Part shown: positions 39,741 to 55,246 of the stretch, one piece after another
How the letters are laid out: each line of letters begins with the position of its first letter
Position numbering within the stretch: position 1 is the first letter of the stretch
Source: an uncultured Flavobacteriales bacterium
Lineage (GTDB): Bacteria > Bacteroidota > Bacteroidia > Flavobacteriales_G > Salibacteraceae
Direction of reading: 5' to 3'
Assembly: GCA_905479105.1 (NCBI GenBank)
Contig: CAJQLE010000001.1
Coordinates: forward strand, 609,628-673,627
DNA length: 64,000 bases
Program-made: the position numbers and the translations under genes
Notes under the pieces: generated by a model
The model's input: the letters and a program-made list of their open reading frames with translations, nothing else
Databases searched by the model: none
What the model was told of the DNA's origin: nothing

Positions 39741-40403
39741 TTAGTTGCAATCTTTAGTCAGGGTTGTGTTTACGTAGACCGTAACATCTGGCCAAAGAAT
39801 ACTTTTACCATCTGCGCCTTTATGAAGGTCTTCGCATACTTTATTAATTGCATGTAAAGCTTCAGATGCAGACCAAGTTTCAACGCTTAGTTGAAACTTG
39901 ATTTCTAGATCGGAGTCTTTCAGGCTGTATTCTCCCGAAACAGGTTTGGTCAGACCATTCATCGTAATGTTGGCTTCAACTTGGCCCGAAACATTATCTC
40001 CTGAAACGGAAGTTAGCTCACCGGTTATTTCTTGTCCGTTCTCTAAGCTACCAAAAAAGGTTTCTTTGATTTTAGGGTCACGTGTCGGATCTCCTGAATT
40101 TGAAGACTCGGTATTGATTTCTATCGTTGTGCCCTTGAGCACATCAGAAATAGAACTTCCTGTTCCAGAATTGGCAACATTAACTTCTTCGAATCTTCCT
40201 TTCACGCCAACCCTTTCAGTGTATTTATAAGCAATCCACATTACCTCTGCAGTATCAGGACCTAGAGAATAAGTACACGTCTCAATGGCCTCTTCTTTAG
40301 CAACCGGCTCTTCTGAAACCACTTCTTTTTGTTCAGTATTACCACCGCAACCTGCTGCTAGTATAACTATTGCTAGTGTTCCGAATATATTTCTTGTTTT
40401 CAT
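39741..40403 (-). CDS. YceI-like domain lipoprotein
   Basis: A 220-residue lipoprotein (MKTRNIFGTLAIVILAAGCGG, lipobox AAGC). The mature part is Glu-rich, then has the YceI pattern (VMWIAYKYTERVGVKGRFEEV, SGQVEANITMNGLTKPVSGEY), a lipocalin-like fold that binds isoprenoid or other hydrophobic molecules in relatives. The ATG lies 2 bases after the biotinyl protein stop, so the two are co-transcribed. Confidence 0.85.
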   Translation of the reverse strand: MKTRNIFGTLAIVILAAGCGGNTEQKEVVSEEPVAKEEAIETCTYSLGPDTAEVMWIAYKYTERVGVKGRFEEVNVANSGTGSSISDVLKGTTIEINTESSNSGDPTRDPKIKETFFGSLENGQEITGELTSVSGDNVSGQVEANITMNGLTKPVSGEYSLKDSDLEIKFQLSVETWSASEALHAINKVCEDLHKGADGKSILWPDVTVYVNTTLTKDCN

Positions 40404-45009: not shown

Positions 45010-47640
45010 TTGAGAGAAATCATCTTGAAGATTAACATTTACAAATACACGATTATAATTGCCATCCTGCTAGAGGGATGTTCGCAAGAGAAAAACACGA
45101 TAGTTAACCGGTCTTATCACAATTTGACGGCAAGATACAATGGGTTTTTTAACGGAAGACTTGCTCTTCAAGATGCGCATAAGTCAATGGAAGAGGCCTA
45201 TGCTGAAGACTACACAATGCGATTGCCCATATTTATATCATCCAAAGACGATGCGGTTCAGCCAGTTTATCCTCAATTAGAGAGAGCGATTGAAAAGACA
45301 TCTATGGTCGTTGATCGCCATAGTATGGACATCAGCGGTAAAGAATATTGCAATTGGATAGATGATACATGGCTTGTTATGGGTGAGGCTCAGTTTTTAA
45401 AAGGGGAGGTTATTCAGGCGAAGCAAATCTTTGATTTCACTAAGAGGAAGTATCCAGATCCGGAGACAAAGCAAATATCGTATATGTATTTGGGTAGGAT
45501 TTACATGGAAAATGAACAGTATGAGCGTGCTGGGGATCAATTCCGGAAAGTGAGTTTGGAAGATGGCCTTCCTGAAAATAAATTAGGCGAATTTTACGCA
45601 GTAAAAACAGATTTCTATTTAAGGCAAAACAGGTTGGATGATGCCATTGAACAGTTAGAGCAGTCGATTGCTTACACGAAAAATAGACAAACTAAAACAA
45701 GGAGAATTTTTCTTTTGGCGCAACTATACAAGGAGAATGGTGAGGGGGGTACTTCTAGTGATTTGTATGCCGAAGTCATTAAGCGGAGTCCCGACTATGA
45801 AATGGCGTTTTATGCTAAAATAAACCGTGCTCTTGCCTATGACGTAACCGGGGGCAATAGCCAAGAGATAAAAGACATCCTTTTTAAAATGATAAAGGAT
45901 GAGAAGAATACCGAATACTTGGATCAAATTTATTATGCATTAGCAGAGCTTGAGCTGAAAGAGGGGAATGAAGAAAAAGGAATCGAGTATTTGCATTTGG
46001 CAACGGAAAAGTCAGTAACAAACGGAAATGCAAAAGGCTTGGCTTATTACAGATTAGCTGAGATTTATTTCTCTAAGCCAGCGTATGCTATTGCACAAAC
46101 ATATTATGATAGTACGGTTGCTTTTTTAAGTACGGAACACCCAGATTATGATGTGATTTTAAAGAGAGCGAACAGTCTTACTCAAATGATGCGAGATATA
46201 GCAATTGTTCAAACCGAAGATAGCTTGCAGGAGTTTGCGTTGTTGTCTGAAGAAGAACAAGACAGATTAATCGAAACGCGTATTGACGATTACATTCAGG
46301 ATGAGAAGGACGCTGAGCGGCAGAAGGAACTAGCCGAATTGCAAAATCAAAACGCCAAGTTTAATCAAAACGACCAGTTCAATAAAAACATGAAGAGTGG
46401 AGACTGGTATTTCTATAATCCGGGAGCTATAGGGTTTGGGGCCTCTGAATTCAAGAAAATTTGGGGCGGGAATCGAAAGAATGAAGATGATTGGAGAAGA
46501 ACAGACAAAACTTCAAATGCACCGCTGCTTATTGCGGGTGACGATGGCATATTAGAAGAAGACACGATTGATGGTGCTGATGATCCGAAGAATCCCAATT
46601 TCTATAAAAAGTCAATCCCGAATACAGATGAAAAATTGACACGATCTCACGCATTGATTATCGAGGCGCTTTATGATTTGGGGTTGGTCTACAAAGAGCA
46701 GATGAACGACTATCCGCCTGCTGCTGAAACATTTGAAGAGCTGATATCGAGGTATGACACTTCAAAATACCACATCACCTGCCACTATCAATTGTATTTA
46801 ATGTATGCTGAAACTGGAAACGAAGCAAAGTCCACCTTTCATAAGAATCAAATTTTATCAAAGTATCCAGACTCAGATTATGCAAAAGTGATCCTTAATC
46901 CCAATTTCGCGGTTTCAAGTGAGGCTCAGGATGCTGAACTTGAAAAGGCATATCAAGAGGCGTATGCTTATTTTGAACAAGGCTTTTATCGCAAGTCATA
47001 CGAATTGGTTACAGCAGCTTTAGAAAAGTATCCGAATGGATCTTTTCAGCCTCAACTAAAGCTCTTGGAAGCGCTATGCTTGGGTTACATTGATAGTGAG
47101 GCCAGGATGATTTCTGAGTTAGAAAATGTAAAAAGTACTTATGGTGGGTCTGATGTAGGCAAGGAGGCAGAAGAAATATTGAAGTATTTCAAGAATGGTA
47201 AATCATTTGGAAACGAAGTAGAGGCCGCAAATCAAAAAATCGAAGAAGAAGCGGCTCAATTGGCAATGGAGAAGTTTAAGTATGACATTGGGGCTTCGCA
47301 TAATTTTATTGTGATTGTTCCAGACTCAATGGATATGGACGTTCTTCAGCGAAATGTTTCTGATTTTAACCGTAAGTATTTCAGCACCAGGGGATTCAAA
47401 ACCTCTATGATTCCTCTTAAAGAAGAGGTTTCGATGATTATTGTATCTAATGTTGGATACGCCTCTAAGGCGATGGATTATTTTTCAACGTTTAAAGGCA
47501 CGGCAGATCTAAAAAGCCTGGTTGACAATGCCAGAAGTGTTTTTGTTATCTCATATGATAATTATGCCCAGTTTTATAAAGACCAAAATGTAGAGGCTTA
47601 CGAGTTGTTTTTCGATGAGAACTATCTGAAAGGCAAGTAG
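45010..47640 (+). CDS. porW: T9SS / gliding motility TPR lipoprotein PorW/SprE
   Basis: An 876-residue protein with a hydrophobic N-terminus ending ILLEGC, and then the conserved N-terminal NRSYHNLTARYNGFFNGRLAL pattern that I recognise from PorW/SprE. Long TPR-like helical repeats occupy about 110-430 and 560-720. It links the T9SS outer-membrane translocon to the inner-membrane motor in relatives. It starts at TTG; TTG at 45010 and 45025 are both possible and neither has a clear ribosome-binding site. The C-terminal part (about 770-876) resembles the Bacteroidota family's end. Confidence 0.85.
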   Translation: MREIILKINIYKYTIIIAILLEGCSQEKNTIVNRSYHNLTARYNGFFNGRLALQDAHKSMEEAYAEDYTMRLPIFISSKDDAVQPVYPQLERAIEKTSMVVDRHSMDISGKEYCNWIDDTWLVMGEAQFLKGEVIQAKQIFDFTKRKYPDPETKQISYMYLGRIYMENEQYERAGDQFRKVSLEDGLPENKLGEFYAVKTDFYLRQNRLDDAIEQLEQSIAYTKNRQTKTRRIFLLAQLYKENGEGGTSSDLYAEVIKRSPDYEMAFYAKINRALAYDVTGGNSQEIKDILFKMIKDEKNTEYLDQIYYALAELELKEGNEEKGIEYLHLATEKSVTNGNAKGLAYYRLAEIYFSKPAYAIAQTYYDSTVAFLSTEHPDYDVILKRANSLTQMMRDIAIVQTEDSLQEFALLSEEEQDRLIETRIDDYIQDEKDAERQKELAELQNQNAKFNQNDQFNKNMKSGDWYFYNPGAIGFGASEFKKIWGGNRKNEDDWRRTDKTSNAPLLIAGDDGILEEDTIDGADDPKNPNFYKKSIPNTDEKLTRSHALIIEALYDLGLVYKEQMNDYPPAAETFEELISRYDTSKYHITCHYQLYLMYAETGNEAKSTFHKNQILSKYPDSDYAKVILNPNFAVSSEAQDAELEKAYQEAYAYFEQGFYRKSYELVTAALEKYPNGSFQPQLKLLEALCLGYIDSEARMISELENVKSTYGGSDVGKEAEEILKYFKNGKSFGNEVEAANQKIEEEAAQLAMEKFKYDIGASHNFIVIVPDSMDMDVLQRNVSDFNRKYFSTRGFKTSMIPLKEEVSMIIVSNVGYASKAMDYFSTFKGTADLKSLVDNARSVFVISYDNYAQFYKDQNVEAYELFFDENYLKGK

Positions 47641-47649
47641 AGCGTTAGT

Positions 47650-47682
47650 TTTGAAGGCATATTAATGAATCCCCTACTTTTG
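47650..47682 (+). promoter_or_regulatory. -33/-7 promoter for bactofilin-ATP synthase cluster
   Basis: TTTG (47650-47653), 21 bases, TACTTTTG (47675-47682). This is the best Bacteroidota promoter match in the window. The bactofilin ATG is 17 bases further on. Confidence 0.7.
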
Positions 47683-47699
47683 CAAAAAAGCTTTAGATC

Positions 47700-48119
47700 A
47701 TGATGAACAGAAATGCGAAAGCCAACGGTAAAAATGGAGAAGGAGAATTTGGTGCTCATAACCAAATTGCTAAAGGCACGCGAATTCAAGGTGACATCAA
47801 AACAGAGGGAGTTCTTCGAATTGATGGAACATTGGTTGGATCGATTGATTCAACTGGAAAAGTTGTGGTTGGGCCATCTGGTAAAATAGAAGGCTCCATA
47901 CGTTGTAATTCTGCGAATATCAGTGGAGAAGTGAAAGCTAAAGTATTTGTAAAAGAGCTTTTGACGCTGCAGGCCTCGGCTAAGCTTCAAGGTGAAATTA
48001 CAACAGGCAAATTAGCTATTGAGCCAGGGGCAGTTTTTAGTGGAAGCTGCAGCATGGGTGGCGTTGTGAAAGAAATCTCTCAAAAGGACGAAGAGCAACT
48101 TGCCGAAAAAACAGCTTAA
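47700..48119 (+). CDS. Bactofilin (polymer-forming cytoskeletal protein)
   Basis: A 139-residue protein with a short disordered N-terminus (about 1-25), then a right-handed beta-helix of repeating hydrophobic/Gly strands (RIDGTLVGSIDSTGKVVVGPSGKIEGS, GKLAIEPGAVFSG). This is the DUF583 bactofilin fold, which forms membrane-attached filaments and often recruits murein hydrolases. Two ATGs (47700, 47703) are possible. Its 3' end overlaps the atpZ-like gene by 20 bases. Confidence 0.92.
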   Translation: MMNRNAKANGKNGEGEFGAHNQIAKGTRIQGDIKTEGVLRIDGTLVGSIDSTGKVVVGPSGKIEGSIRCNSANISGEVKAKVFVKELLTLQASAKLQGEITTGKLAIEPGAVFSGSCSMGGVVKEISQKDEEQLAEKTA

Positions 48120-48312
48120 AAAAATTGTTGAAGTTTCCGGAATTGGGCTTCAACTTTCCACTACAGTTTTTCTTGGAGCTTATTTGGGTAATTATTTGGA
48201 TGATACTTATCCAATAAGCCAAAAAAGAATTTATACCTTACTATTTACTCTTCTGGCAACGGGTATTGCTATTTACAACGTGATCCGGCAGTTGAATAGA
48301 AATAACGATTAA
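48100..48312 (+). CDS. AtpZ/AtpI family ATP synthase accessory protein
   Basis: A 70-residue protein with two membrane helices, starting at TTG inside the end of the bactofilin gene. The LGAYLGNYLDDTY motif matches the AtpZ/AtpI (ATPase gene 1) family, proposed to act in F0 assembly or Mg2+ handling. Overlap with bactofilin and position before atpB support the call. Confidence 0.85.
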   Translation: MPKKQLKKIVEVSGIGLQLSTTVFLGAYLGNYLDDTYPISQKRIYTLLFTLLATGIAIYNVIRQLNRNND

Positions 48313-48314
48313 GC

Positions 48315-48698
48315 GTGATTCCAGCTACTAAATACAGTGCGGGTTTACTTGTACTCTTGCTTATAGCTTATGCTGGACACTGGCAAGTTCTTGGAATCTT
48401 TGGACACCCAGTTGAGTTCACACAATTGCTTCCTTTTTATTCCATGAACTACGTTTTAGGCGTCTGCATCGTCAGCACTCTTATTGCATTGTCAAAATCA
48501 AAAAGTGAAATTCTTGGTTTTGTTTTCATGGGTGGAAGCTTGGTAAAGTTTGCTGTTTTTTTCATTTTTTTTTATCCTGAGCTACACGGCAATGATGAGC
48601 TCAAAAAAGCAACGTTTAATTTGTTTTTTGTACCCTATGTAATCACCGTAATTGCAGAGGTTTGGTATTTGATTCGCTTTCTCAATAGGCGGCCCTAA
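48315..48698 (+). CDS. DUF6168-like small membrane protein of the atp operon
   Basis: A 127-residue protein with four hydrophobic helices (about 8-28, 40-60, 68-90, 100-120). Starts at GTG 2 bases after the AtpZ-like stop. Small membrane proteins in this position occur in Bacteroidota atp operons (DUF6168, AtpI-like); the role is unproven. Confidence 0.7.
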   Translation: MIPATKYSAGLLVLLLIAYAGHWQVLGIFGHPVEFTQLLPFYSMNYVLGVCIVSTLIALSKSKSEILGFVFMGGSLVKFAVFFIFFYPELHGNDELKKATFNLFFVPYVITVIAEVWYLIRFLNRRP

Positions 48699-48807
48699 AT
48701 GATGGAGCAGCTGACAACCTCGGAATCTATTGTTTTTTCTCTTTTAGATTCTAACTATAATGCGTACTCTTGCAGCCAATTTTAAAACCCCTTATTAACA
48801 AAGGAGT

Positions 48808-49878
48808 ATGCGATTAAAAATTGTATTTTCATTTGTCCTTTTTGCTCTGATATTCAATCCGTTCACAGTAAGGTCTGAGCATTCTGACGAAGGAGGAGAC
48901 AGCACTGATATAAGGGCTGAGATTAAGGAGGATATTCTTCATCACCTGCAAGATGCTCATGATTTTCATTTGTTTACAGATGAAACCACAGGCACTCATT
49001 ACAGCTTTCCCTTGCCCATTATTCTGCTAGACGGTGGTGTGAAGTTTTTCATGTCTTCAAAGTTTCATCATGGTGAAGAAATTGCGGAAGTTGACGGAAA
49101 CTATTATGCTCTGCACCATAACCACATATACAAGACGGACGCTGAAGGAACCATTAACTATGATGAAAATCATCATGTTACCAACGCTGCACCTTTAGAT
49201 TTTTCGATTACTAAGAGTGTGTTTAGCGTGATGATTGTTTCGATCATCCTCTTCTTGCTTTTCAAAGCTCTAGGTGATGGATATAAGAAGAGCGCTAATC
49301 CAAAAGGTTTGGGTAAGTTTTTAGAGCCTTTAGTTCTGTTTGTGCGTGATGAAATTGCTATTCCAAACATCGGTGAAAAGCATTACCAGAAATACATGAG
49401 CTATTTGCTGACTGTCTTTGTTTTTATATGGTTCATTAATTTAACGGGTCTTACTCCGCTTGGTATCAATGTAACGGGAAATATTGCAGTGACTTTTGCT
49501 TTGGCTTTAATGACCTTCATTATCACGCAGGTTTCTGCCAAGAGTACCTACTGGAAGCATATATTCTGGATGCCAGGAGTGCCTGTGCCGATGAAGATTA
49601 TTTTAGCGCCAATCGAATTGTTAGGGGTTTTCATTAAGCCGTTTGCATTGATGATTCGTTTATATGCGAACATTTCAGCGGGTCACATCGTTTTGATGAG
49701 CCTGGTCGGTTTGTTGTTCATATTCAACAATTGGTTTGCTCGCGGAGCTTTCTTAGGTTTAACTCTCTTTTTGTCAATAATAGAATTGCTTGTTGCGTTT
49801 CTTCAAGCCTACATTTTCACAATGTTAACCGCGCTCTATTTTGGGTTCGCAGTTGAAGAACACGATGATCATCATTAA
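48808..49878 (+). CDS. atpB: F0F1 ATP synthase subunit a
   Basis: The proton-channel subunit facing the c ring, 356 residues. It begins with a signal-like segment and a His/Asp-rich periplasmic extension (about 25-130: DAHDFHLF, KFHHGEE, LHHNHIYK), as in other Bacteroidota atpB, then the membrane core. The essential arginine lies in LMIRLYANISAGH. A one-mismatch -7 element, TACTCTTG (48765-48772), lies upstream, so a promoter of its own is possible. Confidence 0.94.
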   Translation: MRLKIVFSFVLFALIFNPFTVRSEHSDEGGDSTDIRAEIKEDILHHLQDAHDFHLFTDETTGTHYSFPLPIILLDGGVKFFMSSKFHHGEEIAEVDGNYYALHHNHIYKTDAEGTINYDENHHVTNAAPLDFSITKSVFSVMIVSIILFLLFKALGDGYKKSANPKGLGKFLEPLVLFVRDEIAIPNIGEKHYQKYMSYLLTVFVFIWFINLTGLTPLGINVTGNIAVTFALALMTFIITQVSAKSTYWKHIFWMPGVPVPMKIILAPIELLGVFIKPFALMIRLYANISAGHIVLMSLVGLLFIFNNWFARGAFLGLTLFLSIIELLVAFLQAYIFTMLTALYFGFAVEEHDDHH

Positions 49879-49903
49879 TAATAAAAGTCTTTTTAACTCT
49901 TAA

Positions 49904-50107
<204 letters not shown>

Positions 50108-50117
50108 TTAAGAACCT

Positions 50118-50155
50118 CAACAGTGGCAGCGGTTGGCTGTCACTGTTGTTTTATT
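50118..50155 (+). terminator. Hairpin with T tract between atpE and atpF
   Basis: CAACAGTGGCAGC (50118-50130), loop GGTTG, GCTGTCACTGTTG (50136-50148): a 13-bp stem with one G-T pair, followed by TTTTATT. It lies 10 bases after the atpE stop and 22 bases before the atpF GTG, inside an otherwise compact operon. It fits a leaky terminator or a 3' RNA-stability element. Confidence 0.75.
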
Positions 50156-50177
50156 CATCAAAGAAAATTAAAGAGTC

Positions 50178-50678
50178 GTGGAAAAATTAATAAGTGAATT
50201 TTCAGTCGGTTTGTTTTTTTGGCAAACGTTGTTGTTTCTAGCACTTCTTTTCTTACTAAGAAAATACGCTTGGAAACCAACACTTATTGCTGTAAACCGT
50301 AGAGAAAAAGGAATAGAAGAGGCTTTAGAGTCAGCTGAATTAGCGCGCAAGGAATTGAAGAAGTTGCAAAGCAGCAATAGTGCTTTGATTCAAGAAGCTA
50401 GAGACGAAAGAGAGCTGCTTTTGAAAGAAGCAAAGGCAATGAAGAATGAGATTATTGCTGAAGCTAAATCAAAGGCAAAAGAAGAGGCTGATAAAGTTTT
50501 GGCATCAGCTCGTGAAGAGATTAAAATTGAAAAATCGAAGGCTATCGAGGAGTTGAAGACTCAAGTTGCAGATTTCTCATTTCAAATTGCTGAAAAACTT
50601 TTGTTAGAGAAGCTTTCTGAAAAGGATAAGCAGAGCGATACAGTGAAGTCAGCGTTGAACGAAATTAACTTCAACTAA
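50178..50678 (+). CDS. atpF: F0F1 ATP synthase subunit b
   Basis: The 166-residue peripheral stalk subunit, with one N-terminal membrane helix (about 10-30, LFFWQTLLFLALLFLL) and a long charged coiled coil ending in a delta-binding region. It starts at GTG. Its stop overlaps the atpH ATG by one base (TAATG). Confidence 0.93.
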   Translation: MEKLISEFSVGLFFWQTLLFLALLFLLRKYAWKPTLIAVNRREKGIEEALESAELARKELKKLQSSNSALIQEARDERELLLKEAKAMKNEIIAEAKSKAKEEADKVLASAREEIKIEKSKAIEELKTQVADFSFQIAEKLLLEKLSEKDKQSDTVKSALNEINFN

Positions 50679-51211
50679 TGAGAAGAACGAAGGCAGCAGG
50701 CAGGTATGCTCAGTCTTTGATCGGATTAGCCATTGAACGTGGTGAGCTTGATCAAGTGAAAGCAGACATGGAGTTGATCGCAAAGATTTGTGCCGAAAGT
50801 CATGAATTGGACCTCCTCCTTCAATCGCCTATTATTAAGACCGATCAAAAACAAAAAGCGCTTAAGACGATTTTTGAAAAAGCGGTTTCTAATCTTACTC
50901 TTCGCTTTGTCGAATTGCTTACAAGCAAAGGAAGAGAAGGGCAAATTGCAGGCGTTGCTTTTTCATTCAAAGAATTATACAAAGAGCACATGGGAATTGT
51001 AACCGTTGAGGTTACATCTGCTGTGGAACTTTCTTCAAATCAAGCTAAAGAAATAGCCAAATCCTTTGAGAAATTGGGTAAGACTATTGATTTGGTTCAA
51101 AACGTAGATCCTCATGTTTTGGGTGGTTTGAAAGTTAAAGTAGGCGATCAAAGAGTTGACGCTACGATAAGAAGGAAATTGAACGAATTAAAACACGAAA
51201 CACACAAATAA
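50678..51211 (+). CDS. atpH: F0F1 ATP synthase subunit delta
   Basis: A 177-residue stalk-head protein. The N-terminal helical bundle starts RRTKAAGRYAQSLIGLA and the C-terminal part has VDPHVLGGLKVKVGDQRVDATIRRKL, a well-conserved delta (OSCP) block. One-base overlap with atpF. Confidence 0.94.
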   Translation: MRRTKAAGRYAQSLIGLAIERGELDQVKADMELIAKICAESHELDLLLQSPIIKTDQKQKALKTIFEKAVSNLTLRFVELLTSKGREGQIAGVAFSFKELYKEHMGIVTVEVTSAVELSSNQAKEIAKSFEKLGKTIDLVQNVDPHVLGGLKVKVGDQRVDATIRRKLNELKHETHK

Positions 51212-51241
51212 AAGCTTTCAGCAATCTAATCAGATTAAGTT

Positions 51242-52828
51242 ATGCCTGAAATTAAACCAGCAGAAGTATCAGCCATCCTCCGAGAACAACTCTCAGGAGC
51301 AAAAACCGAAGCAGAACTAGAAGAAGTAGGTTCGGTTCTCCAAGTAGGTGACGGTATTGCACGTATTTACGGGTTGTCCAATGTACAAGCAGGAGAATTG
51401 ATTGAGTTCGAAAACGGACTTCAAGCCATTGCTTTGAACCTTGAAGAAGACAACGTAGGAGCCGTTCTTTTGGGTCACTCAAACGACATCAAAGAAGGCG
51501 ACATCGCTAAGCGAACTAAGAAAATAGCTTCTATCTACGTTGGTGAAGGCATTATTGGCCGTGTAGTCAACACATTGGGTCGACCAATTGATGGTAAAGG
51601 ACCAATAGAAGGTGAATTGTTCGAAATGCCTATCGAGCGCAAGGCTCCAGGTGTCATCTTTCGTGAGCCAGTTACGGAGCCTCTCCAAACAGGAATTAAG
51701 GCGATTGACGCTATGATTCCAGTTGGACGTGGACAAAGAGAGTTGATCATTGGTGATCGTCAAACAGGAAAGACTACTGTGGCGATTGATACGATTATCA
51801 ATCAAAAAGAATTTTATGATAGAGGAGAGCCTGTGTACTGTATATATGTTGCTTCCGCTCAAAAGGCATCAACAGTAGCTGGTGTTGTTAAGCGGTTAGA
51901 AGATGCTGGTGCAATGGCTTACACTACGGTTGTTGCTGCGAACGCATCTGATCCTTCTCCAATGCAGTTTTATTCTCCTATGGCAGGTGCTGCTATTGGT
52001 GAGTTCTTTAGAGATACAGGAAGACCAGCTTTGATCGTTTATGACGATTTATCAAAGCAAGCTGTTGCTTACCGTGAGGTTTCACTTCTTTTGAGAAGAC
52101 CTCCAGGACGCGAAGCTTACCCGGGTGACGTATTCTACCTTCACTCACGTTTGTTAGAGCGCGCTGCTAAGATCATCAATGATGACACTATTGCTTCTCA
52201 AATGAACGACCTTCCAGAGGCACTAAAAGGAAAAGTGAAAGGTGGTGGATCGCTAACAGCCCTCCCTATTATTGAAACTCAAGCAGGTGACGTTTCGGCT
52301 TATATCCCAACCAATGTAATTTCTATTACTGATGGTCAGATATTCCTTGAAGCAAACTTGTTTTTAGCCGGTGTACGGCCAGCGATTAACGTGGGTATCT
52401 CGGTATCTCGAGTTGGTGGTAACGCACAGATAAAATCAATGAAGAAAATTGCTGGTACGCTGAAGCTTGATCAAGCGCAATACCGGGAATTAGAGGCGTT
52501 TTCTAAATTTGGTTCTGACCTTGATGCTGCTACTAAGAGCGTTTTGGATAAAGGTTCTAGAAACGTGGAGATTTTAAAGCAAAATGAGAATCAACCAATG
52601 GCGGTTGAGAAGCAAATTGCGATCATCTATTGCGGAACAAAGAACTTGCTTCGCGGTGTTCCTGTGAATAAAGTGAAAGAGTTTGAGGTTGAATACCTTG
52701 ATTTCTTGGATAGAAAGCACAGAGATGTTCTTGACACGTTGAAAGCAGGGAAATTGACGGACGAGGTTACAGACACTCTAGCAAAAGTTTGCGCTGAATT
52801 GAGCGCTAAGTATAATACTAAGAAATAA
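51242..52828 (+). CDS. atpA: F0F1 ATP synthase subunit alpha
   Basis: A 528-residue noncatalytic nucleotide-binding subunit. Walker A is [14 protein letters not shown]; the beta-barrel N-domain is present ([25 protein letters not shown]); [13 protein letters not shown] and the C-terminal helical domain follow. The region 51280-51900 also has open antisense frames, which I take to be shadows. Confidence 0.97.
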
Positions 52829-52837
52829 CAGAGAACC

Positions 52838-53716
52838 ATGCCTAACTTAAAAGAGGTAAGGGTAAGAATCACATCAGTAAACAGCACCAAGCAGATTACA
52901 TCTGCTATGAAAATGGTGTCTGCAGCTAAATTGCGTAAAGCGCAAGATGCTGTTACTCAGATGAGACCTTATGCAGAGAAACTCCAAGAAATTCTTAAGG
53001 GCGTAAGCGCTGGCTTGGATACGTCTGAAAACGTTTATGGTCGAAACGATAAAGACGAGAATGTCTTGATCATTACTATAAGCTCGAACAGGGGTCTTTG
53101 TGGTGCTTTTAACTCTCAGGTCATTAAGCATGTTAAGCATCTTATTGCTGATGATTATAAAGGCAAGAATGTAACTATCCTGACGTTTGGTAAGAAAGCA
53201 GAAGAGGCATTCAGAAAAACTGATCACTTCATCAAAGGCACTCTGCTTCCTCGCCACACAAATGAAATTTTCGATGACCTTACGTATGACAGAACTGCCG
53301 AGGCAGCAAGTAAGATAATGGGAGCCTTCAAGGCGAAGCAGTTTGACCGTGTTATGTTGGTCTACAACTCGTTTAAAAATGCAGCCGTTCAAATTGTAAA
53401 AACAGAGCAATTTCTACCTGTACTTCCTCCTGAAAATGATGGAAGCGGAGTGGATGCTGACTACATTTTTGAGCCTAACAAAAATGAAATTGTTGGAGAT
53501 TTGATCCCGAAGTCATTGAAGACCCAGCTCTTCAAGGCTCTTTTGGACAGCACAGCATCAGAACATGGAGCACGAATGACGGCAATGCACAAGGCAACAG
53601 ATAATGCCACGGACCTTATCAAAGAGTTGAAATTAACTTACAATAAGGCTAGACAAGCAGCTATTACCAAAGAAATCCTTGAGATAGTTGGTGGAGCAGA
53701 AGCCTTGAATGGTTAG
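52838..53716 (+). CDS. atpG: F0F1 ATP synthase subunit gamma
   Basis: The 292-residue rotor shaft. N-terminal helix MPNLKEVRVRITSVNSTKQITSAMKMVSAAKL and C-terminal helix with MHKATDNATDLIKELKLTYNKARQAAITKEILEIVGGA are the two coiled-coil arms; the SSNRGLCGAFN strand is diagnostic. It ends the cluster; atpD and atpC are not here. Confidence 0.96.
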   Translation: MPNLKEVRVRITSVNSTKQITSAMKMVSAAKLRKAQDAVTQMRPYAEKLQEILKGVSAGLDTSENVYGRNDKDENVLIITISSNRGLCGAFNSQVIKHVKHLIADDYKGKNVTILTFGKKAEEAFRKTDHFIKGTLLPRHTNEIFDDLTYDRTAEAASKIMGAFKAKQFDRVMLVYNSFKNAAVQIVKTEQFLPVLPPENDGSGVDADYIFEPNKNEIVGDLIPKSLKTQLFKALLDSTASEHGARMTAMHKATDNATDLIKELKLTYNKARQAAITKEILEIVGGAEALNG

Positions 53717-53738
53717 TATTAAGATAAAAAGTCTAAGG

Positions 53739-53775
53739 AAAGCCTCGCATTTAATGCGGGGCTTTTTCATTTTTA
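53739..53775 (+). terminator. Rho-independent terminator after atpG
   Basis: AAAGCCTCGCAT (53739-53750), loop TTA, ATGCGGGGCTTT (53754-53765): a 12-bp stem with one G-T pair, then TTCATTTTT. It ends the atp transcript. Confidence 0.85.
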
Positions 53776-53803
53776 CGGCATTATTCTTGTCTACATTTAT
53801 CAC

Positions 53804-55246
53804 GTGAAACTAAGAACGAGAATTTCTTTGGCTATGCTTTCATTGGTGATAACCTCACTTTTGATTATCGGCTTAGTTACGATATGGTTTTTTACCGATC
53901 AGAATAAGCAGTATCATGAAGAACGATTGCAGCGAAAAGAAAGAGCAATCAAAACTGAAATGACATATTTTTCAAAGGAGGTAGAGCTTCAAGAGGACAT
54001 GGACGTGGTCATTAAGGAATTTGAAGAAGAGGTTTTTAGATTGGCCTCTGTGCATCAGTTGGAAATAAACGTCTTCAATACATCAGGGGAGATATTAGTA
54101 GCAGCAAGGCCGGATTCAGTTCACTCACAATACATTGAGAAGAGGGTTCCTGAGTCGGCAATTTCGGATCTCGTAATGATGAATCGTATCATCATTCCAG
54201 AGCAAGAAGGCTCGAGAAAATACTTGTCTGACTATACAAACCTCTATAATGAGAATGATGAAAGAATCGCCATTCTAAATATCCCTTACTTACAAGACAC
54301 ATCAGTAAACCAGCAAGACTTAGAAGCGTTTTTAGGCTCGATTGGAGTGGTGTATTTGTTCATTTTCTTGGGAGGCATTGGGTTGACGTTTTTACTTTCA
54401 CGATCGATTACTAGAAACTTAACGGAGTTGGGCGGACGTATGCAGAAGGTCAATCTTAATGAGCGAAATGAACCGTTCGATTGGAAGTCAGATGATGAGA
54501 TTGGCAAGTTGGTAAATGCATTCAATACGATGCTAAATAAGTTAGAAGAGAGCAGACAAGAATTAGCCAAAACAGAAAGAGAATCGGCATGGCGAGAAAT
54601 GGCTAGACAAGTTGCTCATGAGATAAAGAATCCATTAACTCCGATTAAACTCAGTGTGCAGCATCTTCAAGCAACAGCCAACTATGATGATGAGGTTTGG
54701 CGTGAGAAATTTAAACGAACGATGGCGACCATCATTCAGCAAATTGATTCTTTGAGCAATATTGCTACTGAATTCTCGGACTTTGCGAAAATGCCTCAAG
54801 CAAAGGCTGAGGTTATTTCTTTGAATGAAGCTGTTCGTGCTGCGGCTGAATTATATGCTGACCTGGCCTTTGAACTCGTTACTGAAGTACCTGATCAAAC
54901 AATAAACTCATTTGTTGATCCAGAGCAATTAGGCAGGGTAATGAATAACCTTATTAAGAACGCTAAACAAGCGGGCTCAGACACTCAAATACCACGAATG
55001 AGGGTTTGTCTTAAAAAGGTTGGCGAGACCGCTGAAATCATCGTTGAGGATAATGGTTCAGGAATAGCAGATGATTTTAAAGATAAAATTTTTAGACCCA
55101 ACTTCACTACTAAAAGCAGCGGTATGGGACTTGGGCTCTCCATTTGTAAGCAGATAATTGAAAGCGCGGGAGGTTCCATTTCATTTGAAAGTGAATTAGG
55201 AATTGGAACAACCTTTAAAGTAACTCTTCCTGCAGTGAAACCATAA
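53804..55246 (+). CDS. Sensor histidine kinase (HAMP/HisKA/HATPase, NtrY-like)
   Basis: A 480-residue membrane kinase. TM1 about 10-32, a periplasmic domain to about 170, TM2 about 173-197, then HAMP, HisKA with H272 in AHEIKNPLTP, and HATPase with NLIKNAKQAG (N box), VEDNGSGIAD (G1), GMGLGLSICK (G2). No response regulator is adjacent. Starts at GTG, within a sequence sharing 13 of 16 bases with the parS consensus (53796-53811). Confidence 0.9.
   Translation: MKLRTRISLAMLSLVITSLLIIGLVTIWFFTDQNKQYHEERLQRKERAIKTEMTYFSKEVELQEDMDVVIKEFEEEVFRLASVHQLEINVFNTSGEILVAARPDSVHSQYIEKRVPESAISDLVMMNRIIIPEQEGSRKYLSDYTNLYNENDERIAILNIPYLQDTSVNQQDLEAFLGSIGVVYLFIFLGGIGLTFLLSRSITRNLTELGGRMQKVNLNERNEPFDWKSDDEIGKLVNAFNTMLNKLEESRQELAKTERESAWREMARQVAHEIKNPLTPIKLSVQHLQATANYDDEVWREKFKRTMATIIQQIDSLSNIATEFSDFAKMPQAKAEVISLNEAVRAAAELYADLAFELVTEVPDQTINSFVDPEQLGRVMNNLIKNAKQAGSDTQIPRMRVCLKKVGETAEIIVEDNGSGIADDFKDKIFRPNFTTKSSGMGLGLSICKQIIESAGGSISFESELGIGTTFKVTLPAVKP

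Follow-up and report, generated by a model that had tools for sequence, protein, structure and literature searches.

The gap between the ATP synthase genes atpE and atpF in the window (the whole 64,000-nucleotide stretch analyzed here, from an uncultured Flavobacteriales bacterium) carries a hairpin that is well supported as a conserved structured RNA element of the atp mRNA. The combination of a conserved loop with a stem that is free to vary suggests a control element for ATP synthase production that has so far gone undescribed.

Pfam assignments in the window (ATP-synt_A, ATP-synt_C, ATP-synt_B, OSCP, ATP-synt_ab, and ATP-synt) give the gene order atpB-E-F-H-A-G and confirm the gene names used in a first-pass annotation of this DNA. 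The successive gaps are 37 nt (atpB-E), 70 nt (atpE-F), –1 nt (atpF-H, an overlap), 30 nt (atpH-A), and 9 nt (atpA-G). The atpE-F gap had been described as the only long one; it is the longest within atpB–atpG, but a gap of 109 nt lies upstream of atpB. The features in and around the atpE-F gap are as follows:

49916..50107, + strand: atpE, c subunit, 63 aa (Pfam); the stem-loop lies 11–41 nt past its stop
50112..50154, + strand: match to covariance model R1, 47.5 bits, the window sequence itself being in the model
50118..50130, + strand: 5′ arm of the stem (CAACAGTGGCAGC), from sequence and fold, with covariation in relatives
50131..50135, + strand: pentaloop GGTTG, from sequence and the motif rule in relatives
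50136..50148, + strand: 3′ arm of the stem (GCTGTCACTGTTG), from sequence and fold, with covariation in relatives
50149..50155, + strand: short imperfect T tract TTTTATT, from sequence and family T statistics
50178..50678, + strand: atpF, b subunit, the cistron downstream of the hairpin (Pfam)

The stem-loop at 50118–50148 contains 13 base pairs, including one G-U pair, and is followed directly 3′ of its 3′ arm (from 50149) by TTTTATTCAT. The region 50108–50177 folds with a minimum free energy of –23.2 kcal/mol (z = –4.38; as good in 0 of 200 shuffles), which bears out the earlier description of a strong 13-bp stem-loop after the c-subunit gene.

Elsewhere in the locus, a DUF6168 protein is encoded at 48315–48698 between a PF09527 (ATPase_gene1) protein and atpB, in a slot usually occupied by an AtpI-like protein. 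Directly 3′ of atpG, a 14-pair hairpin with a terminal T run (53737–53767) is likely the operon terminator. The AtpE of the window is very short at 63 aa, with 10 residues past the ion-binding Glu vs. 15–16 in the long type. Nine of the 13 sampled genomes of its own genus encode a short AtpE (63–65 aa) together with one AtpF type, and four encode a long AtpE (81–84 aa) together with another AtpF, a pattern that looks like an exchange of atp genes. The conserved loop is present in all 13, across both AtpE/AtpF types.

Conservation of the hairpin in related genomes had been named in the first-pass annotation as a check, and the outcome is strongly positive. A search of 80 genomes, the genome of origin among them, identified AtpE in 77; 70 of those loci form the first set, in which the sequence 3′ of the atpE stop was read at each locus and the atpE-atpF gap is mostly 60–110 nt. 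Under the motif rule, a hairpin with the loop GGTTG or GATTG follows atpE in 53 of the 70 loci (own genome included), with a C-G closing pair in all but two of the 53. The remaining 7 genomes of the 77 were fetched later; one locus ends at a contig edge and was excluded (L271), and three of the six evaluable loci (L272, L273, and L277) have the loop by inspection, for a total of 56/76. Among distinct hairpins under the motif rule (n = 129), 114 have GGTTG and 15 have GATTG. One locus, L174, passes the rule by chance, folding with another loop, and is contained in the 130- and 119-row sets used below, though not in the 129. Conversely, the automated rule misses five loci that have the loop on a bulged or imperfect stem (L250, L264, L114, L190, and L272).

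The stem is diverse in sequence, with a mean identity of 33% over the twelve 5′-arm positions nearest the closing pair (18 families, one representative each), and is maintained by pairing. Two-sided compensatory change is seen at 15 of 15 stem pairs in an ungapped alignment, with 290 two-sided change cells observed vs. 96 in shuffles. The covariation score is 0.864, vs. 0.234 in shuffled and 0.15–0.24 (maximum 0.243) in slid alignments; the counts are inflated by relatedness, which the slid controls retain.

The pairs also reveal the strand. Over the 12 innermost pairs in a set of 130 distinct hairpins (one row being the chance match), there are 101 pairs of the G-U type and 26 of the A-C type; the 53-locus set gives 36 vs. 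11 (p = 0.0003), and one hairpin per family gives 7 vs. 1 (p = 0.07). Because G-U pairs outnumber A-C mismatches, selection appears to act on the sense mRNA, and the functional molecule is most likely sense RNA. With respect to the flanking genes (n = 125), the loop starts a median of 26 nt from the atpE stop (SD 4.7, range 16–47) and ends a median of 51 nt from the atpF start (SD 15.6, range 30–153). This tighter spacing to the atpE stop fits a 3′ element of atpE. On a log scale the spreads are 0.17 and 0.23, a smaller difference than on the linear scale, so the hairpin is tied to atpE moderately. Where the gap is long (e.g. 196 nt at L106), the hairpin still lies close to atpE.

A covariance-model search of the 2.79-Mb genome of origin returned one strong match, the atpE-atpF site (47.5 bits), with the next best at 15.5 bits; the many copies per genome that mark REP-like dispersed repeats were thus not found. 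In a search of the window, a second, weak match was observed at 39866–39908 (18.1 bits, E = 0.023), probably an ordinary hairpin. A 464-kb control from the same genome, consisting of a 400-kb stretch plus the window, contains 220 perfect hairpins with stems of 9 bp or longer, counting both strands, and 36 of these have pentaloops. GGTTG occurs in 1 of the 36, namely the atpE-atpF hairpin, and since the other 35 are not GGTTG, a generic hairpin loop of this genome is ruled out. The bare loop motif is common, occurring at 145 places in the genome.

Across the phylum, the covariance model matched at least 58 of 247 genomes, with 29 loci outside the genome of origin. This search was loose at first look, misses some sites and scored no more than 25 candidates per genome, so absences were not counted; one genome that has the motif (G059, locus L047) was reported only at another place. 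At 26 of the 29 loci atpE directly precedes the match, and one of these, L083, also contributed to the model. The remaining three (L096, L097, and L102) resemble plain terminators, having T runs and loops of different sequence. Among 20 weaker model matches, 6 lie after atpE and 14 elsewhere, the latter mostly hairpins with a T run. By eye, 5 of the 14 have a GGTTG or GATTG pentaloop (L108, L112, L113, L116, and L122), a figure that is no measure of loop frequency, since the model search favours that loop. Across the phylum, the loop also occurs away from atpE.

The motif is present in 18 of the 32 families of the first set and in 21 of 38 with later loci added. Among named loci, the automated rule is passed by 71 of the 80 closest to the window AtpE, whose titles include Flavobacterium, Flagellimonas, Arenibacter, Maribacter, Vicingaceae, and Crocinitomicaceae; one locus with a doubtful stop (L193) is counted as lacking the motif, and some named loci duplicate the sequences of unnamed ones, L192 and L003 being one such pair. 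The exact loop is missing in 14 of the 32 first-set families, as well as in loci from two more Bacteroidia families (L134 and L142). Several loci in the class, including L005, L024, L026, L030, L048, L060, L062, and L142, have either a hairpin whose loop is very dissimilar or none that is strong; by folding, no strong hairpin follows atpE in L048, L060, and L062. In other classes of the phylum, 26 loci of 21 families yielded no genuine motif, L174 being the chance pass. Four Flavobacteriaceae MAGs (L261, L262, L263, and L266) have a short atpE-atpF gap and no motif, indicating that the motif is dispensable.

Folding shows a different pentaloop with a final G at nine more Bacteroidia loci. Variants closed by C-G comprise AATGG, GTTAG, and GCTAG in family f16, GCCTG in f24, and AAAGG, GAAGG, and ACAGG (twice) in f37; f4 has GAATG with a G-C closing pair, and later loci add GCTTG in f41. 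Family f37 (L188, L189, L278, L066, and L187; L278 by eye) has its own version, consisting of an apical GC[ACAGG/AAAGG/GAAGG]GC, an internal loop, and an outer stem. In a 0.49-Mb genome (L039), a 14-bp AT-rich stem is kept after atpE with the loop AAAAA. Long GC-rich hairpins of another design, at about –50 kcal/mol, occupy the same gap in family f49, outside the class (L143, L144, and L147).

Pairing of the GGTTG loop with the CAACC of Arg-Gln-Pro codons in atpE was considered and rejected. The Gln codon is CAG in 46 of 113 readable GGTTG loci, the GATTG variants occur without a matching codon change, and CAACC is rare in the near flanks too.

The c subunit is needed in more copies than the other ATP synthase subunits, roughly ten per complex. 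The hairpin thus lies 3′ of the cistron that is needed more abundantly, as do stabilisers of the puf type. The stem is maintained by compensatory change, and the C-G-closed pentaloop G[G/A]UUG by its sequence. Because the loop is conserved while the stem is free, we propose that a cellular factor, most probably a protein, reads the loop; such a loop-binding factor is something that we infer purely from these patterns. The hairpin would then most likely mark the point where the atpBE portion of the transcript ends and protect that 3′ end, or it would halt some polymerases there; either way, the c subunit would be made in larger amounts than the subunits whose genes lie downstream. We give even odds to the hairpin being an atpBE 3′ element that is recognised through its loop and adjusts c-subunit output by 3′-end protection or partial termination. 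The broader idea is put forward more tentatively, at somewhat less than even confidence: Bacteroidia may possess a dedicated factor, probably a protein, that reads G[G/A]UUG, and the clade versions with a final G, apparently at a single main site in each genome, and thereby sets the c-ring subunit against the rest of the ATP synthase.

A simpler account, which we consider unlikely, is that of a plain leaky intrinsic terminator, in which the hairpin and a short T tract would shed some polymerases and the loop sequence would be irrelevant. Like an intrinsic (Rho-independent) terminator, the element is a GC-containing hairpin followed by T, and its hairpin has the stability expected of one; the window site also heads a list of 11 terminator-like sites called in its region (8.5 expected). 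In the family, T is the commonest base at each of the 10 positions past the GC core, and 82 of 119 hairpins have at least 5 T in 8. Unlike such a terminator, however, the element has a weaker or missing T tract and a conserved loop, and stands in an operon with needed downstream genes. The T tract of the first-pass annotation is present, but it is merely TTTTATT, and the window sequence after the stem, TTTTATTC, does not have the strong tract of an intrinsic terminator (about 7–8 T in the first 8 positions past the stem). In the family, 15 of 119 hairpins have 7 T among the 8 bases past the core, not one has all 8, and 37 have 4 or fewer, in a count that ends at the outermost GC pair before the second mismatch and thus undercounts the bulged L023, L028, L061, L070, L100, L110, and L221. 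No real T tract is present at L027, L054, L056, L058, and L238. In the genome of origin, 7–8 T are found after 11 of the 20 hairpins located where genes converge and after 8 of the 16 in same-strand gaps, a control of one genome set against a family from many genomes.

The earlier suggestion of a leaky terminator is thereby weakened: the hairpin is stable, but the T tract is weaker than those of terminators in the genome of origin (15/119 vs. 11/20). Partial termination may take place at the hairpin, but cannot account for the conserved loop; the loops of other hairpins in the genome of origin vary. The position fits an atpE 3′ element, but neither the suggested leaky terminator nor the 3′ stabiliser explains why the loop is conserved.

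Loop conservation would be accommodated by an autoregulatory switch, in which an ATP synthase subunit or assembly factor encoded in the operon binds the loop and changes its own mRNA, as in ribosomal-protein leaders. A single strong site within the atp operon is typical of self-regulation, a loop conserved by sequence on a stem conserved by pairing alone is in keeping with it, and the clade-wise loop variants could follow a changing protein. We nevertheless judge this distinctly unlikely: the hairpin follows the second F0F1 gene and precedes the third instead of standing in a leader, and the identical loop beside two AtpE/AtpF types in one genus disfavours AtpE and AtpF as readers. Very unlikely, in our estimate, is a translation-coupled spacer, a hairpin that would block ribosome run-through or scanning from atpE and leave the atpF start region open. 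The stem begins roughly 10–15 nt past the atpE stop and is followed by a linker of roughly 15–140 nt before atpF, a geometry compatible with such a role, but a spacer has no need for a fixed loop, and the distance to atpF is more variable than that to atpE. A chance palindrome, mobile repeat, or DNA-level site has a next to negligible probability: inverted repeats are common, as the 220 perfect hairpins attest, but covariation, the one strong copy, strand asymmetry, and conservation over many families refute it.

The loop-recognised 3′ element proposed here shares features with several known systems. In the parts of the literature covered, differential decay within E. coli operons (e.g. tatABC, in which the ring-forming TatA is stabilised) likewise sets unequal stoichiometry post-transcriptionally by protective RNA structures, which there generally lie within coding regions, whereas the atpE hairpin is intercistronic and loop-specific (PMC5927463). 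The Rhodobacter puf operon, as covered in part, combines an intercistronic hairpin region, unequal product needs, and segmental mRNA stability (PMC11354728); in the atpE hairpin the loop, and not the stem, is conserved over many families, a feature that the part covered does not give for puf. For chloroplasts, the sections covered report that the PPR protein BFA2 protects the atpH/atpF transcript (atpH being the c-subunit gene), a c-subunit transcript protected by a sequence-specific RNA binder (PMC6474325), and that atp 3′ ends lie at protein sites or hairpins (PMC3817242). The BFA2 site is, however, in the atpF-atpA gap. In an archaeon, internal termination tunes complex stoichiometry, while its ATP synthase operon is without such termination in the portion of the source covered (PMC10450193).

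Flavo-1 RNA (RF01705) and the other motifs of Weinberg 2010 are, like the atpE hairpin, computed structured RNAs of Bacteroidetes, but no atp-linked hairpin is named in the parts of that paper covered (PMC2864571). The term ‘ATP synthase’ is missing from the main texts of two Bacteroides transcriptome papers (PMC7366714 and PMC10994844), the RbpB paper (PMC11697453), and the F. psychrophilum paper (PMC9723704). No such atpE element was found among the matches listed for the main texts of open-access papers; a supplementary table may list one. No Rfam family reached its gathering threshold in window 47500–54000 or in the loci of eight relatives; sub-threshold matches over the L065 hairpin scored 35.5 of 208 bits (opposite strand) and 19.3 of 290.8 bits.

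How some ten c subunits per ATP synthase are obtained from one operon is a long-standing question, to which the E. coli answer is mainly translation rates. According to two studies (PMC7366714 and PMC9723704), Bacteroidota mRNAs carry no Shine-Dalgarno sequences, and these bacteria may therefore use another device for c-subunit excess. If the proposal is true, the hairpin would represent a new RNA family and one half of a previously undescribed RNA–protein pair governing a core bioenergetic complex. Its fixed loop on a free stem offers a five-base handle for direct testing, and the hairpin may serve as bait for a sequence-specific RNA-binding protein of Bacteroidia.
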